Position numbers and translations under genes: made by a program. Below are positions 1-12,524 of a stretch of DNA of 58,949 nt, in pieces. Below the pieces are notes generated by a model. It did not search any database. It had not been told where the DNA came from and saw nothing but the letters and a program-made list of their open reading frames with translations. How positions within the stretch are numbered: the stretch's first letter is position 1; each line of letters starts with the position of its first letter. Source of the stretch: a virus; IMG/VR virus record IMGVR_UViG_3300032086_003047, positions 1 to 58,949 of that record. The stretch is one strand, 5' to 3'.

Positions 1-378
1 TTAGCTTTAAACAAGTTGGGGTTTGATGAGCCTTGTGTTGCAGTTTATTATGGGAATTATGATGAACGTGACTTTGAAAATGGTATAGCTTTAGAATATA
101 GGCAATCACAGTATTATGCTCAAAAAGGTTGGTCTAAAGGTTTGTTAGCACCACTATACCAACAAGCATTTAGATGGTTTAGGGAGGAGTATAAATTATT
201 TGGTGAAGTTTGTCTTACAACTAAACAAGAAGATTGTGAGGTATTTGAGTTTTTTGTGTTAAATATAAATGAACCTCTATTTGAATCAGATGATTATACT
301 GTTTATGAAAAAGCTAAACTTGCTTGTCTTAGAAAACTAATTGAAATAGTAAACCAAAACAAAGATGAAAACAATTAA
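1..378 (+). CDS. Hypothetical protein, 5'-truncated by window edge
   Basis: The frame is open from base 1, so the true start lies upstream; a TTG at position 16 is unlikely to be the start. The visible 125 residues are soluble and rich in aromatic and acidic residues (for example FRWFREEYKLFGE). I recognise no family. The C-terminus ends IVNQNKDENN because the last codons run through a repeated start-site cassette (351-368), and the stop falls 14 bases inside the next gene. It belongs to the run of small accessory genes. That it is coding is well supported by its full-length open frame; its function is unknown. Confidence 0.75.
   Translation, partial: LALNKLGFDEPCVAVYYGNYDERDFENGIALEYRQSQYYAQKGWSKGLLAPLYQQAFRWFREEYKLFGEVCLTTKQEDCEVFEFFVLNINEPLFESDDYTVYEKAKLACLRKLIEIVNQNKDENN
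351..368 (+). repeat. Gene-junction cassette, perfect copy 1 (AAACCAAAACAAAGATGA)
   Basis: This 18-base sequence occurs identically at 351-368, 522-539 and 1958-1975, with variants at 1368, 1653 and 1762. In each copy the ATG near its end is the start codon of the next gene. It has no Shine-Dalgarno-like purine run; the A-rich leader is in keeping with translation initiation in Bacteroidota, where Shine-Dalgarno pairing matters little. In this copy the cassette also encodes the tail NQNKD of the upstream protein. Confidence 0.8.
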
Positions 379-523
379 AGCAGAGGAGAAGATGATTCCT
401 TTAAGTGAGATTAGACGTATTCTCATAAAATTCTATCAAGGGTTAAAAGGTTTGACAGAAGAGAAGGATAGAATGCATCTAACTTACGATGAATTAGACA
501 AATGGATTGAAGAAAACCTTTAA
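365..523 (+). CDS. Small hypothetical protein (52 aa)
   Basis: An ATG in the repeated cassette at 351-368 opens a 52-codon frame beginning MKTIKAEEKMIPLSEIRRIL and ending WIEENL at TAA 521-523. It overlaps the previous gene by 14 bases and is followed 12 bases later by the next cassette start. The product is charged, probably helical and has no membrane segment. No family is recognised. Its reality is supported by the perfect position of its start in the cassette and by the tight packing with both neighbours. Confidence 0.7.
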   Translation: MKTIKAEEKMIPLSEIRRILIKFYQGLKGLTEEKDRMHLTYDELDKWIEENL

Positions 524-539
524 ACCAAAACAAAGATGA
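522..539 (+). repeat. Gene-junction cassette, perfect copy 2
   Basis: Identical to 351-368. Its ATG at 536 starts the radical SAM-like gene. Here the upstream stop codon overlaps the first bases, so the cassette is not coding for the upstream protein. This shows the sequence is kept for its role at the start, not for its peptide. Confidence 0.8.
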
Positions 540-1369
540 TAAAGCACCAGAAAACTAAAACTCTGGTCACCAAACCCAATAACAATAGTGCAAATTGTAT
601 AGCACCAAACTTAGTTTATGGTTGTTTTGGTGGCTGTATAGATACATACTGTTATATGTCTAGATACAATGGACATAGAGTATTTGTAAATGAAAACGTT
701 GATGATATATTTAACTCTGTTGTAGAGTGGGAGAAAACATTTACTAAGGAACCTGATCAACAGGATCCTATATACACAATGGTAGATATTGCTTGTAATA
801 CTGACTTAGTATTAATGCAGAAACATTTACCAGAACCCTTGATAGATTATCTTAAGAGATATGATAATCATCCACAGCTTAATACAACTATGGCTACTAA
901 GTATCCAAACCTATTAAACTTGGATGTAAGAGATTTTAATAAATCACCAAGAGTAAGAGTGAGTTTAATGCCTCAAAAGTTTGCTGATATACTTGAGCCT
1001 AAGATGCAAAAGATTGAAAGCAGGATACATGAGATAAACAGATTAAAAGATTTAGGATGGGAAGTTCATATAAACTATAGCCCATTGGTATTTACTAATG
1101 GTTGGAAAGATGAATATAGAGATCTATTTGAAGCTGTTAAAGAGATAGCAGGAGTTAATAAATGTGAAGTAATTGCATTAACTAATCATCACTATCAAAT
1201 GGAAAAAGCTTCACCAGAAGCACAGGAGTTAATGAAATATTCTTGTGAAGTGAAGAATAACTCAGGAGTAATGCGTTATCCACTCAAATGGAAAACAGGT
1301 TGGCTCAATGAGTTTAAGAAAGAATATGAGAAGTTCTTTCCATTAGATACAATTAGATACATATTTTAA
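536..1369 (+). CDS. Spore photoproduct lyase-like radical SAM protein
   Basis: This 277-aa protein resembles the spore photoproduct lyase (SplB) family of radical SAM enzymes, which repair UV-induced thymine dimers in spore DNA. An N-terminal cysteine cluster (GCFGGCIDTYCY, residues about 30-41) is placed like the [4Fe-4S]-binding loop and followed by a basic/aromatic stretch. The later segments TKYPNL, RVRVSLMPQ, RIHEINRLKDLGWEVHINYSP and GWKDEYRDLF follow the order seen in SPL-like proteins. The cluster spacing is C-x3-C-x4-C, whereas SPL normally has C-x3-C-x2-C. The start is set by the cassette at 522-539. What it repairs or modifies cannot be told from sequence; a different radical SAM reaction is possible. 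Confidence 0.65.
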   Translation: MIKHQKTKTLVTKPNNNSANCIAPNLVYGCFGGCIDTYCYMSRYNGHRVFVNENVDDIFNSVVEWEKTFTKEPDQQDPIYTMVDIACNTDLVLMQKHLPEPLIDYLKRYDNHPQLNTTMATKYPNLLNLDVRDFNKSPRVRVSLMPQKFADILEPKMQKIESRIHEINRLKDLGWEVHINYSPLVFTNGWKDEYRDLFEAVKEIAGVNKCEVIALTNHHYQMEKASPEAQELMKYSCEVKNNSGVMRYPLKWKTGWLNEFKKEYEKFFPLDTIRYIF

Positions 1370-1384
1370 ACCAAAAGAAGATGA
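1368..1384 (+). repeat. Gene-junction cassette, variant copy
   Basis: AAACCAAAAGAAGATGA is a shortened version of the 18-base cassette. Its ATG (1381) starts the next gene, and the stop of the radical SAM-like gene overlaps its beginning. Confidence 0.6.
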
Positions 1385-1677
1385 AGATTAAACAAAAGGA
1401 CATAACAATTGATGATGTATTTCCTGAATATAAAAAAGCTCATGCTGGGGTAAAAAGACAAATGAGACATGTTTTTGCAAAAGAAAGCAGACCTTTATAC
1501 TGTCCCGTATGTCACAGAGAACATACGGGAAATGAGTTAAAGCTTAATGGTATGCAGTGTCATGGATATGGCATAGAACTAATAGTACCTGGATGGGGAT
1601 CACCTAGAATAATGCCTGACAAGGATGCTAGAGAACAACTTATTAAATTAATAACCCAAAACAAAGATGATTTCTAA
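1381..1677 (+). CDS. Small putative zinc-ribbon protein (98 aa)
   Basis: The product has a CPVCHREHTG segment (near residue 41) and a later MQCHGYG, together giving Cys/His ligands for one zinc. The rest is charged, with no membrane segment. The C-terminus ITQNKDDF is encoded by another copy of the start cassette, and the gene overlaps the next one by 11 bases. The DNA encoding the zinc loop contains a perfect inverted repeat (1504-1529). The family is not recognised; a nucleic-acid-binding or structural zinc role is only an inference from the motif. Confidence 0.65.
   Translation: MKIKQKDITIDDVFPEYKKAHAGVKRQMRHVFAKESRPLYCPVCHREHTGNELKLNGMQCHGYGIELIVPGWGSPRIMPDKDAREQLIKLITQNKDDF
1504..1529. 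repeat. Perfect inverted repeat inside a coding region
   Basis: CCCGTATGT (1504-1512) and ACATACGGG (1521-1529) are perfect 9-base complements separated by 8 bases. They lie inside the zinc-ribbon-like gene, over the CPVCHREHT codons. The arms are more GC-rich than their surroundings. No T-run follows, so this is not an intrinsic terminator. Confidence 0.6.
1653..1670 (+). repeat. Gene-junction cassette, variant copy
   Basis: AACCCAAAACAAAGATGA differs from the 18-base cassette at one position. Its ATG (1667) starts a tiny membrane protein gene, while the same bases encode TQNKD at the end of the upstream protein. Confidence 0.65.
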
Positions 1678-1786
1678 AATAGTTGAACGCATAGTAGATG
1701 CAATAGGTATAATAGTAATAATGCCAATTCTTGTAATAATAGGCACTATTGATATGTGGATAAACAAAAACAAAGAAGATGAATAG
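1667..1786 (+). CDS. Tiny single-pass membrane protein (39 aa)
   Basis: A 39-codon frame starts in the cassette at 1653-1670 and ends at TAG 1784-1786. It overlaps the upstream gene by 11 bases and the downstream gene by 8. It begins MISKIVERIVDA, then has about 17 strongly hydrophobic residues (IGIIVIMPILVIIGTI), then a charged tail ending NKNKEDE that is again encoded by a cassette variant. It should be a one-helix inner-membrane peptide. No family is recognised. Very small membrane proteins recur in this cluster (3187 and 4367). Confidence 0.65.
   Translation: MISKIVERIVDAIGIIVIMPILVIIGTIDMWINKNKEDE
1762..1782 (+). repeat. Gene-junction cassette, variant copy
   Basis: AAACAAAAACAAAGAAGATGA is a longer, looser version of the 18-base cassette. 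Its ATG (1779) starts the next gene. Confidence 0.5.
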
Positions 1787-1985
1787 ATTAAAATATAAAC
1801 ATGAAATACCTTCCTATGAAGAAAAGGCAAAAGTTCTTAAAGAAAATGGTTGGGAAACTTGGTATGATGATGACAACTGGATAAAAACAGAATGGCGTGA
1901 CCAAGGTAAAAAGATTGATATGATGGGAAGGTCAACTGAATCAGCCTATAAAATTGTAAACCAAAACAAAGATGAGTTGGACTGA
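1779..1985 (+). CDS. Hypothetical protein (68 aa)
   Basis: A small, charged, aromatic-rich protein (KENGWETWYDDDNWIKTEWRD near its middle) with no membrane segment or metal motif. Its start lies in a cassette variant and its end IVNQNKDELD in a perfect cassette copy, giving a 14-base overlap with the next gene. The segment 'NGWETWYDDDNWI' looks like a compact beta-rich surface, but I recognise no family. The coding call rests on the junctions at both ends. Confidence 0.65.
   Translation: MNRLKYKHEIPSYEEKAKVLKENGWETWYDDDNWIKTEWRDQGKKIDMMGRSTESAYKIVNQNKDELD
1958..1975 (+). repeat. Gene-junction cassette, perfect copy 3
   Basis: Identical over 18 bases to 351-368 and 522-539. Its ATG (1972) starts the next gene, and it encodes VNQNKDE at the end of the upstream protein. 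Confidence 0.8.
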
Positions 1986-2340
1986 TAAGGATATGCTACG
2001 TTTTGCACGTATTGCTAGTGGAGGTGCATACGGATTATATTCTGGGTGCAAATCACTAGAGAGTAAATTAAGTAGATACAAAAAACTAAGTAAAACTATG
2101 AGCAGGTATATTAAAGAATTAGAAAATGGAAAGACTGTAGCATATGGATATGATCATGTGTTAGGTTATTTCTTTGATGTGTTTGATGTTCCAGATGATG
2201 ATGGAGTAGAGAATCTATTAATAGAAGAATCATCACTATTAACTAAGATGAGCAATGGCAAAATGCTAGAGCTTATGAATGTTTATGAACTTCCAGAATC
2301 ACATATAGAACAAGTAGCAATGGATTTACCAATTAAATAA
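1972..2340 (+). CDS. Hypothetical protein (122 aa)
   Basis: A soluble protein of 122 residues. The N-terminal half is basic and probably helical (SLESKLSRYKKLSKTMSRYI); the C-terminal half is acidic (FDVPDDDGVENLLIEE) and ends with a proline/isoleucine segment. The start is fixed by the third perfect cassette copy. No family is recognised. It is the last gene of the cassette-joined run; the next gene starts 8 bases after its stop with a different upstream sequence. Confidence 0.65.
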   Translation: MSWTDKDMLRFARIASGGAYGLYSGCKSLESKLSRYKKLSKTMSRYIKELENGKTVAYGYDHVLGYFFDVFDVPDDDGVENLLIEESSLLTKMSNGKMLELMNVYELPESHIEQVAMDLPIK

Positions 2341-3190: not shown

Positions 3191-3282
3191 TTGGACCGTT
3201 TATATTGTTTCTTATGCTAGTTGTATTCTTTGCTGCATTATCTATGCTAGATGATTTAAACAAAAAAGACAAGGAGGAATAA
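3187..3282 (+). CDS. Tiny membrane protein (31 aa)
   Basis: A 31-codon frame from ATG 3187 (overlapping the upstream TGA) to TAA 3280-3282. It begins with MIGPFILFLMLVVFFAALSM, one clear transmembrane segment, followed by a short charged tail ending KKDKEE. That tail is encoded by the AAGGAGGAATAATTATG cassette serving the next gene. One-helix peptide of unknown role. Confidence 0.6.
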   Translation: MIGPFILFLMLVVFFAALSMLDDLNKKDKEE

Positions 3283-3287
3283 TTATG
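3271..3287 (+). promoter_or_regulatory. Strong Shine-Dalgarno start cassette, copy 1
   Basis: AAGGAGGAATAATTATG, with AAGGAGGA as a near-perfect Shine-Dalgarno sequence 6 bases before the ATG at 3285. The same sequence occurs at 3654 (one base different) and 3956 (identical), each before one of three paralogous genes. It stands out because almost all other starts in this window lack a Shine-Dalgarno sequence. Confidence 0.75.
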
Positions 3288-3665
3288 GCACTAAATAAAA
3301 ACATAGCAAAAGCAATCAAGAGAAGACAGGAAAATGAATTGCGTGAGAATAACAAACTCATAGCAGAGTTTATGGGACTAATTATAAGAGATGAAGAAGG
3401 AGATCTACCTGTAAGCAGTCAACAACATAAACTATTCATAGAAGAAGAATGGGGTAAACTAGATATATGCAGCCCTTATAGTCCTAATGGAGTAGATTAC
3501 CACACCTCTTGGGATTACCTAATGCCTGTGGTAGAGAAGATAGGCAAAGAAGTTGCCCCTCACTTTGACGAAATTGTTGGCTTGGGTCTATTGAGTACAA
3601 GAAATCAGGTATATAGAGCAGTGGTAGAGTATATTAAAGAATATAACAAAAAGAAGGAGGACTAA
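3285..3665 (+). CDS. Tandem paralogue family, member 1 (126 aa)
   Basis: First of three adjacent related genes. The shared pattern is ENNKLIAEFMG (residues about 21-31 here), then a variable middle, then SWDYLMPVVEKI, then a C-terminal helix. This copy has an extra basic N-terminus (IAKAIKRRQENELR) and an insert in the middle. It is soluble, with no catalytic motif visible. A strong Shine-Dalgarno cassette precedes it. The 'N-LIAEFMG...SWDYLMPV' signature is common in small hypothetical proteins of Bacteroidota phages; the function is unknown. Confidence 0.7.
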   Translation: MALNKNIAKAIKRRQENELRENNKLIAEFMGLIIRDEEGDLPVSSQQHKLFIEEEWGKLDICSPYSPNGVDYHTSWDYLMPVVEKIGKEVAPHFDEIVGLGLLSTRNQVYRAVVEYIKEYNKKKED

Positions 3666-3670
3666 TTATG
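3654..3670 (+). promoter_or_regulatory. Strong Shine-Dalgarno start cassette, copy 2
   Basis: AAGGAGGACTAATTATG, one base different from 3271-3287, placed at the start (3668) of the second paralogue and encoding the KED end of the first. Confidence 0.75.
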
Positions 3671-3967
3671 GACACAATAGAAAATAATAAACTTATAGCG
3701 GAGTTTATGGGATATGAATTGACTGTAACAGAAGCCATGGTACTGCCAGGTAGATCATATGGAGTTAACTTAAACCGCTTTGAAGAATCATGGGATTATC
3801 TGATGCCTGTAATAAAAGAGGTATCCGAATCTGAAGAAGCGTATGACATGGAATTAGACTTTCATGAGATTGCTTGTGAGATGCTTGATAATGATATTGA
3901 ACAAACTTACAAGTTGGTAGTACATACTATTAAACTAATTAATGAAAGCAGAGATAAGGAGGAATAA
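3668..3967 (+). CDS. Tandem paralogue family, member 2 (99 aa)
   Basis: It shares with its left neighbour ENNKLIAEFMG at residues about 5-15 and SWDYLMPVIKEV at about 41-52, in the same order and spacing class; the middle and C-terminus have diverged. It is acidic, soluble and has no known motif. The start is set by the repeated Shine-Dalgarno cassette, 2 bases after the previous stop. It arose, I infer, by duplication of the gene together with its start cassette. Function unknown. Confidence 0.7.
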   Translation: MDTIENNKLIAEFMGYELTVTEAMVLPGRSYGVNLNRFEESWDYLMPVIKEVSESEEAYDMELDFHEIACEMLDNDIEQTYKLVVHTIKLINESRDKEE

Positions 3968-3972
3968 TTATG
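3956..3972 (+). promoter_or_regulatory. Strong Shine-Dalgarno start cassette, copy 3
   Basis: AAGGAGGAATAATTATG, identical to 3271-3287, at the start (3970) of the third paralogue and encoding the KEE end of the second. Confidence 0.75.
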
Positions 3973-4383
3973 ACAACAGATGAAAGAAACATATTAATGG
4001 CTGAATTTAAAGGCTGGAAATACAATGAAGAAACTGAAAAGTTTACAAAAGGATCATTGACTTTTCGTTTAGCATCATTTGAATATCACAAAAGCTGGAA
4101 TCAGCTAGTGCAAATCGTTAATCTTTGTAACAGAAGGGTTACTCTTATGGCAATTTGTCCTGAAGATCCACAATTTAAGTACTGGGATCAGCAAATAATG
4201 GAAAATCTTATTTTCGATTTCAATGATATGATTGAAGCTTATGGTTTAGCCTTTGTAAGTGATGATATAACACAAGCTCATAAAATAACAGCTGAGTGGA
4301 TTATTCAGTACATGGATGGCTATGAAGACGCTAGAAAGCAATATGAAGCTGATAAATATGAAGGCTATGAAAAAGATTATTAA
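3970..4383 (+). CDS. Tandem paralogue family, member 3 (137 aa), diverged
   Basis: The most diverged of the three: ERNILMAEFKGWKYNEE at the N-terminus and KSWNQLVQIVN in the middle align with ENNKLIAEFMG and SWDYLMPV of the other two. It is longer and ends in a charged, tyrosine-rich tail (YEADKYEGYEKDY). It overlaps the following tiny membrane gene by 17 bases. The 'EFKGW...SW' pattern is typical of small Bacteroidota phage proteins; function unknown. Confidence 0.7.
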   Translation: MTTDERNILMAEFKGWKYNEETEKFTKGSLTFRLASFEYHKSWNQLVQIVNLCNRRVTLMAICPEDPQFKYWDQQIMENLIFDFNDMIEAYGLAFVSDDITQAHKITAEWIIQYMDGYEDARKQYEADKYEGYEKDY

Positions 4384-11732: not shown

Positions 11733-12524
11733 ATGGAGATTAAACTACCAACAAAAAAGATGACGGCAACGTATGTTGATCCACACATTATGCTTTTTTA
11801 TGGTCCCCCTAAAGTAGGTAAGACAACTGTGTTAAGTCAGTTGGATGATTGTTTGATAATAGACCTTGAAGACGGTACTAAGTATCTTGATTCAATGCGA
11901 GTTCAGGTAATAGGTTTGAAAAAACCTGTAGAATCTGATAAAGCTTTGGCTGAAAGGCAAGAGAAGAATCAATACTATCTGGATGAGATAGGTAAAGCTA
12001 TTCACGAAAAGGGTAAACCATATAAGTATGTGGCTATTGACACGGTTACCAAGTTGGAAGAATGGTGTGAGTGGGAAGGTACAAGTATGTACATGAGCTC
12101 AGTCCAGGGTAAGAATTTTAACAGAGATAATAAGGGTAATATTTTACCTAGAAGTAAATGGAACTCTGTTTTGACTTTACCAAACGGTGCAGGTTATATG
12201 TGGTTAAGATCAGCTATGAAAGATTGGCTTGATAAAATCTACACACTTGCTCCACATATTATTCTTGTAGGTCACTTGCTGGATAAGATGATCGAAAAGA
12301 AAGGTAAAGAAGTTAATGCAAAAGATTTAGATCTTACGGGTAAATTGAAACGTATTGTATGTGCACAAGCAGATGCTATAGGTTATCTTTATCGTACTGA
12401 TGAGAAACTGTATATTAATTTTCAATCTGCAGATGAGGTGAACTGTGGCTCCAGATGTGATCATTTGAGAGGACAGAACATTGAGTTTTCGTGGGAGAAA
12501 ATTTATACATCAACGAGTAAATAG
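11733..12524 (+). CDS. AAA_24 / Sak4-like RecA-fold ATPase
   Basis: This 263-aa protein opens with a basic strand, then MLFYGPPKVGKTTVLSQ (Walker A, K30), then CLIIDLEDGTKYLDS, the element typical of the AAA_24 family of phage nucleotide-binding proteins. YVAIDTVTKLEEW holds Walker B (D103), and IILVGHL resembles the sensor strand. Members of this family include Sak4-like recombinases, which promote single-strand annealing with an SSB partner. The gene directly after this one is SSB-like, which fits. Whether it anneals DNA or has another RecA-like role cannot be decided from sequence. Confidence 0.78.
   Translation: MEIKLPTKKMTATYVDPHIMLFYGPPKVGKTTVLSQLDDCLIIDLEDGTKYLDSMRVQVIGLKKPVESDKALAERQEKNQYYLDEIGKAIHEKGKPYKYVAIDTVTKLEEWCEWEGTSMYMSSVQGKNFNRDNKGNILPRSKWNSVLTLPNGAGYMWLRSAMKDWLDKIYTLAPHIILVGHLLDKMIEKKGKEVNAKDLDLTGKLKRIVCAQADAIGYLYRTDEKLYINFQSADEVNCGSRCDHLRGQNIEFSWEKIYTSTSK

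Follow-up and report, generated by a model that had tools for sequence, protein, structure and literature searches.

A short sequence joining stop and start codons marks probable sites of small-gene exchange in crAss-like and T4-like phages

A short repeated sequence, referred to here as the box, is very likely a frame-independent stop–start joint of tailed phages with probable Bacteroidota hosts, and also a target of recombination. To judge from the sequences compared here, the box stands at the starts of small accessory genes and mostly brings stop codons in all three frames to within about 20 nt of its ATG. Homology between phages breaks within the box, and single genes seem to have been traded from box to box, also between crAss-like and T4-like phages.

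Results

The window, i.e. the whole stretch of DNA that was analyzed, is IMG/VR record IMGVR_UViG_3300032086_003047 (58,949 nt, positions 1 to 58,949). The original prediction, made from its letters, was that an 18-base start cassette with its own ATG is repeated near one end, and this was confirmed at six sites. The 18-mer, AAACCAAAACAAAGATGA, occurs unchanged at 351, 522 and 1958, with one mismatch at 1653, with two mismatches at 1762, and, shortened by a small deletion to TAAACCAAAAGAAG-ATG, at 1367/1368. The ATGs at 365, 536, 1381, 1667, 1779 and 1972 each open an ORF, of 52, 277, 98, 39, 68 and 122 aa, respectively. All six boxes are on the plus strand within the first 2 kb; neither the rest of the 58,949-base record nor its minus strand has a further copy of the 18-mer. 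When up to three mismatches are allowed, the window has five matches, a number reached by none of 100 dinucleotide shuffles (mean 0.31). The box extends beyond these 18 bases: in other phages, conservation also includes T at −15 and the AGTAA that follows the ATG.

The genes joined by these boxes, all on the plus strand, follow one another closely. The gene upstream of box 1 (16..378), whose real start may be outside the record, reads through box 1 (350..367; TAAACCAAAACAAAG-ATG) and stops at +11. Box 1 starts a 52-aa cassette gene of unknown function with no Pfam match (365..523), the stop of which, TAA at 521–523, belongs to box 2 (521..538). The ATG of box 2 at 536 starts a gene for a spore-photoproduct-lyase-like (SPL-like) radical SAM protein (536..1369; PF20903, E = 2e-16), whose stop is in turn the TAA of box 3 (1367..1383), the short-deletion variant. 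Box 3 opens a 98-aa cassette gene (1381..1677), and box 4 (1652..1669; one mismatch, TAACCCAAAACAAAG-ATG) a 39-aa gene (1667..1786) with a relative in L155 that is likewise boxed. Box 5 (1761..1781), which belongs to a +3 subtype, TAAACAAAAACAAAG-AAG-ATG, and in which the upstream ORF stops at +5 (TAG), opens a 68-aa gene (1779..1985), and box 6 (1957..1974) a 122-aa gene (1972..2340). The latter is also boxed in L036/L237, where its upstream neighbor is different. Elsewhere, homologues of 1972–2340 start at the Met equivalent to residue 43, either with a box (L224, L236, L060) or without one; compared with them, the window form has an additional N-terminal part.

Three of the upstream proteins had been said to carry an NQNKD tail encoded by the box. 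This held for two of them (ending at 378 and 1985); the third (ending at 1677) has TQNKD, and a fourth (ending at 1786) has NKNKED. Such tails result from one upstream frame (frame 2) running into the box, and the frame-2 stops in the window range from +5 to +11 and are not uniformly at +5. The upstream stop had also been said to precede the repeated bases in some genes; at 522 and 1367, the upstream gene ends on a TAA that makes up the first codon of the box. When homologues of the SPL-like gene 536–1369 were checked in 59 other viral loci, none had a box, indicating that the box does not belong to that gene as such; a tie to particular genes was thus ruled out. A second repeated start context, AAGGAGGA(A/C)TAATTATG, is found at 3267–3300, 3650–3683 and 3952–3985, before three tandem, partly paralogous genes. 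It is a strong Shine–Dalgarno (SD) sequence and adjoins the SD-less box genes; the host of the phage is itself probably SD-less.

Across phages the box consensus is TTAAACCAAAACAAAG-ATG-AGTAA, which has a stop codon for each frame: TAA at −15, in frame with the ATG, then TGA at +1 and finally TAA at +5. All three stops are present in 54% of 336 boxes but in only 4.1% of 1,391 other starts on the same contigs; when stops at +8 and +11 are allowed, three-frame stops are found in 72% of boxes and 7.3% of control starts. The spacing between box and ATG varies by −1 and +3, and the +3 subtype is present in 31 viral stretches. In 23 previously unused loci, found by the +3 variant, three-frame stops were present in 53%. 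Among 183 consecutive cassettes, the upstream gene ends at one of the box stops in 135 cases (+5 in 54, +1 in 45, −15 in 29 and −18 in 7), and all three upstream frames are used (93/50/40). Box stops that the actual upstream neighbor does not need are conserved too. With stops in all three frames, the box terminates an upstream gene whatever its frame and starts the one that follows. The original prediction had missed the three-frame stop, as it had the sharing of the box with T4-like phages.

No Shine–Dalgarno sequence was found in 335 boxes. The frequency of A at −3, −6, −12 and −13 is 0.99, 0.99, 0.99 and 0.91 in boxes, compared with 0.63, 0.55, 0.65 and 0.59 at control starts, and structure is weak (mean MFE over −30 to +20, −1.4 kcal/mol, compared with −2.4 at control starts). 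In Flavobacterium johnsoniae, A at these same four positions raises translation (PMC6847099). The surmise of a non-Shine–Dalgarno start is therefore supported at the level of sequence, by the lack of SD and by A at the positions favored in Flavobacterium, and the box appears to fit the A-rich (Kozak-like) start rule of Bacteroidota. C at −11, −10 and −5 is 74–82% conserved, although the Kozak-like rule does not require C there.

At least 119 viral stretches contain an exact match to the 15-mer ACCAAAACAAAGATG, and the 19-mer TAAACCAAAACAAAGATGA likewise gave at least 119; some of the 15-mer matches are single chance hits away from starts, the signal being the arrays. Carriers, most of which are metagenome assemblies, often have 3–20 copies per contig on one strand, and many hold arrays; a 380-kb record, for example, has 20 hits, and a record of 242 kb has 23. 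In G004, a box occurs every 100–800 bases across 5 kb. Box copies are strand-consistent within arrays, and a reversed-pattern control gave 2 hits in total in 26 records. At 18–26 kb of G023 (L071/L172), two opposite-strand arrays face each other (18.1–19.6 kb, plus; 22.2–25.7 kb, minus). ORFs of at least 30 codons are opened by 91% of box ATGs but by 30% of all ATGs, showing that in other phages, too, the 18-mer is tied to starts and not randomly placed, as had been predicted. The 321 cassette ORFs fall into 219 families, mostly without known function. Some cassettes encode known enzymes, namely thymidylate synthase, the UV endonuclease UvdE, a cytosine methylase, an SPL-like protein and a PD-(D/E)XK nuclease (L156:7477–8583 and others).

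In 257 Gb of bacterial genomes, exact matches were limited to 32 stretches and, outside the phage-like arrays L191 and L197, showed no evident tendency to lie at gene starts; a host-wide start signal was rejected on these grounds. No cultured carrier was found in the sources checked: Cellulophaga phage phi14:2 has no box, and a 32-nt query of INPHARED gave chance-level hits only, the match in Flavobacterium immuto falling inside a gene. A text search for the 15-mer, whose scope left out most subscription journals, found no paper.

The carriers belong to two phage lineages. A structural protein of the window has matches in 48 phage records, of which the identified ones are crAss-like, the nearest being phi14:2 (Steigviridae); by this sequence relationship, the window is assigned to the crAss-like phages (Crassvirales). 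The 50 larger carriers include 12 with a crAss-like portal and 11 with a T4-like gp23 (major capsid protein), and none has both. The T4-like capsid protein is nearest to those of uncultured, Microcystis, Flavobacterium and Rhodothermus phages; judging from such relatives only, the hosts of the carriers are likely to be Bacteroidota. Window cassette 1779–1985 matches a box cassette in a 380-kb T4-like jumbo phage record (G001; L049:10968) over 172 nt at 88% nucleotide identity. This identity begins at the ATG and stops where the next box of the window, box 6, begins, and box 6 truncates the window gene, which has 68 residues compared with 105 in the T4-like homologue. Only three further cases of genes truncated by a box were found. 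In a weaker second cross-lineage case (L104/L123), identity is 79% over 81 nt; one strong and one weaker case thus form the basis for exchange between the lineages.

Alignments between contigs at 85% identity or more begin at the left edge of a box and end at the right edge of a box. Two-sided breaks at boxes account for 139 of 350 internal HSP ends, compared with 2 at 317 matched boxless small-gene starts of the same arrays, and boxes had 139 broken junctions to 28 passed through, boxless starts 2 to 27; because HSPs share ancestry, these counts are a strong pattern and not independent events, and odds ratios exaggerate how many events there were. The box breaks are drawn from 168 box copies at 85 loci and represent 117 distinct alternative-neighbor pairs. 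In 41 alignments, a single gene is cut out exactly from box to box. In the 23 previously unused loci, 12 of 22 left ends and 9 of 24 right ends lie at boxes. Comparison of flanks needs box masking, since the unmasked version is dominated by box-to-box matches. With a less strict, asymmetric control the contrast was smaller (0.83 versus 0.64), since degenerate boxes are present at many of the starts that it counted as "boxless". The predicted excess of box junctions between genomes is thus evident, with single genes moving from box to box, and the idea that small genes are shuffled at the box appears to be largely right. Of the proposed mobile or recombining gene-joining unit, the recombining part is supported: a self-moving element found no support, and the box looks like a recombination joint. 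We also observed that 19 of 41 contigs, including the window (positions 1–2000), carry a box no more than 3 kb from one of their ends, compared with 5.6 expected, which suggests that the arrays vary within populations and break assembly.

Discussion

We propose that the ATG of the box would be recognized without a Shine–Dalgarno sequence, through the A-rich start rule of Bacteroidota ribosomes, and that initiation there is probably reinitiation by a ribosome that terminated a few bases away. Stop codons no more than about 20 nt from the ATG suit termination–reinitiation (PMC6728339). Selection on the start would keep some 20 nt identical, and this identity could in turn offer a target for annealing-type homologous recombination. 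The recombinase is assumed to be Sak4-like in the crAss-like phage and of the RecA/UvsX type in the T4-like ones. Sak4 proteins carry out single-strand annealing and promote recombination of divergent DNA (PMC5928155, PMC5499656). In the window, the AAA_24 (PF13479) ATPase encoded at 11733..12524 on the plus strand (E = 9e-22), a domain of the Sak4-type recombinase group, is a candidate for exchange between boxes. Since each crossover in a box would give a working gene pair, shuffling there should cost little.

The conserved A at −3, −6, −12 and −13 fits measured determinants of translation and is among the most conserved positions, so the box might be only a strong non-Shine–Dalgarno start, a convergent optimum of Bacteroidota ribosomes, with exchange occurring at gene boundaries anyway and the box taking no part in it. 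We consider this unlikely, because two-sided breaks at boxless small-gene starts of the same arrays number 2 against 139, because 32 exact-match stretches in 257 Gb of bacterial genomes indicate that the host optimum does not yield the box sequence, and because the C positions and the TAA and AGTAA ends are unnecessary for initiation. The sharp breaks at box edges, the single-gene cassettes and the openness of the cassette pool (321 ORFs in 219 families) are also what would be expected if the box were the site of a dedicated site-specific recombinase, as in an integron-like gene cassette system. Such a system is quite improbable, given that the box has no inverted-repeat or stem–loop architecture (mean MFE as above, −1.4 kcal/mol over −30 to +20), that no integrase gene was recognized among the window proteins scanned, that the spacing between box and ATG varies (−1, +3), and that the carriers come from two unrelated lineages.

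We find it very hard to see the box as a transcription element, either a promoter or a processing site, repeated for each gene like the PeSLs of T4: its register to the ATG is fixed, with the ATG and the second codon inside the conserved block, and it overlaps the upstream coding end, lacks a stem–loop and occurs in arrays of co-directed, overlapping genes. Promoter-bearing mobile regulatory cassettes do, however, mediate shuffling in T4-like phages (cited in PMC4503421). Short repeats can break or join contigs, and the excess of boxes near contig ends (19 of 41 contigs within 3 kb, against 5.6 expected) might be taken to mean that the variety of junctions is an artefact of assembly, but we attach next to no weight to this explanation. 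The same junction order was found in separate assemblies (L028/L056/L110; L067/L091; L040/L102), a GenBank MAG contig (L191) shows the same pattern, and many exchanged copies are 5–20% divergent, indicating that those exchanges are old.

We therefore favor the stop–start joint that is also a recombination target. A wider proposal, which we put forward tentatively and regard as rather doubtful, is that the box is a "gene socket" standard: unrelated lineages with related hosts would keep one joint and trade host-takeover or anti-defence genes as single-gene cassettes, and a dedicated protein might recognize the box in DNA or mRNA.

Phage mosaicism is usually ascribed to random illegitimate recombination followed by a filter of selection. 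The box would make exchange nearly damage-free, since it ends the upstream gene in whichever frame that gene arrives and starts the following one, with the breaks falling just there, and the old question of boundary sequences as drivers of mosaicism would become directly testable. The box may also serve as a handle for finding small accessory genes in crAss-like and jumbo phages that have not been cultured, and as a frame-independent gene joint for expression work in Bacteroidota.

The nearest known kinds of sequence are the SAS of cluster K mycobacteriophages and the PeSLs of T4-like phages. The SAS/ESAS of cluster K are short asymmetric sequences directly before many small gene starts (Pope et al. 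2011, PMC3203893), and their authors suggested them as a possible target of homologous recombination. Like the SAS, the box is repeated right upstream of many, often unrelated, small genes, mostly in one orientation. However, the SAS is a 13-bp sequence, GGGATAGGAGCCC, with an AGGAG Shine–Dalgarno core, and about half of the SAS have a 17-bp inverted repeat (PMC3203893), whereas the box is unrelated in sequence and had no SD in any of the 335 copies. The box furthermore includes the ATG, the second codon and three-frame stops, and exchange at the box was measured here. The PeSLs are mobile regulatory cassettes (Arbiol et al. 2010; Comeau et al. 2014; cited in PMC4503421). They are repeated intergenic elements that mediate small-gene shuffling in hypervariable regions, and the box marks shuffling sites too. 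By contrast, a PeSL consists of an early promoter and a stem–loop terminator and acts at the level of transcription, whereas the box, an unstructured sequence, spans the stop and start codons and is common to unrelated phage lineages.

Other comparisons concern parts of the box. In termination–reinitiation at ATGA overlaps, stop and start lie a few bases apart, as they do in the box, but the known pairs use one frame, whereas the box has stops in three frames around one start (PMC6728339). Integron-like systems combine a tyrosine recombinase with structured attC sites, and the box has no structured site. The Kozak-like, SD-less starts of Bacteroidota share with the box low structure and A at −3, −6, −12 and −13, but they reflect a general nucleotide preference, whereas the box is one fixed sequence that is missing from bacterial gene starts (PMC6847099).
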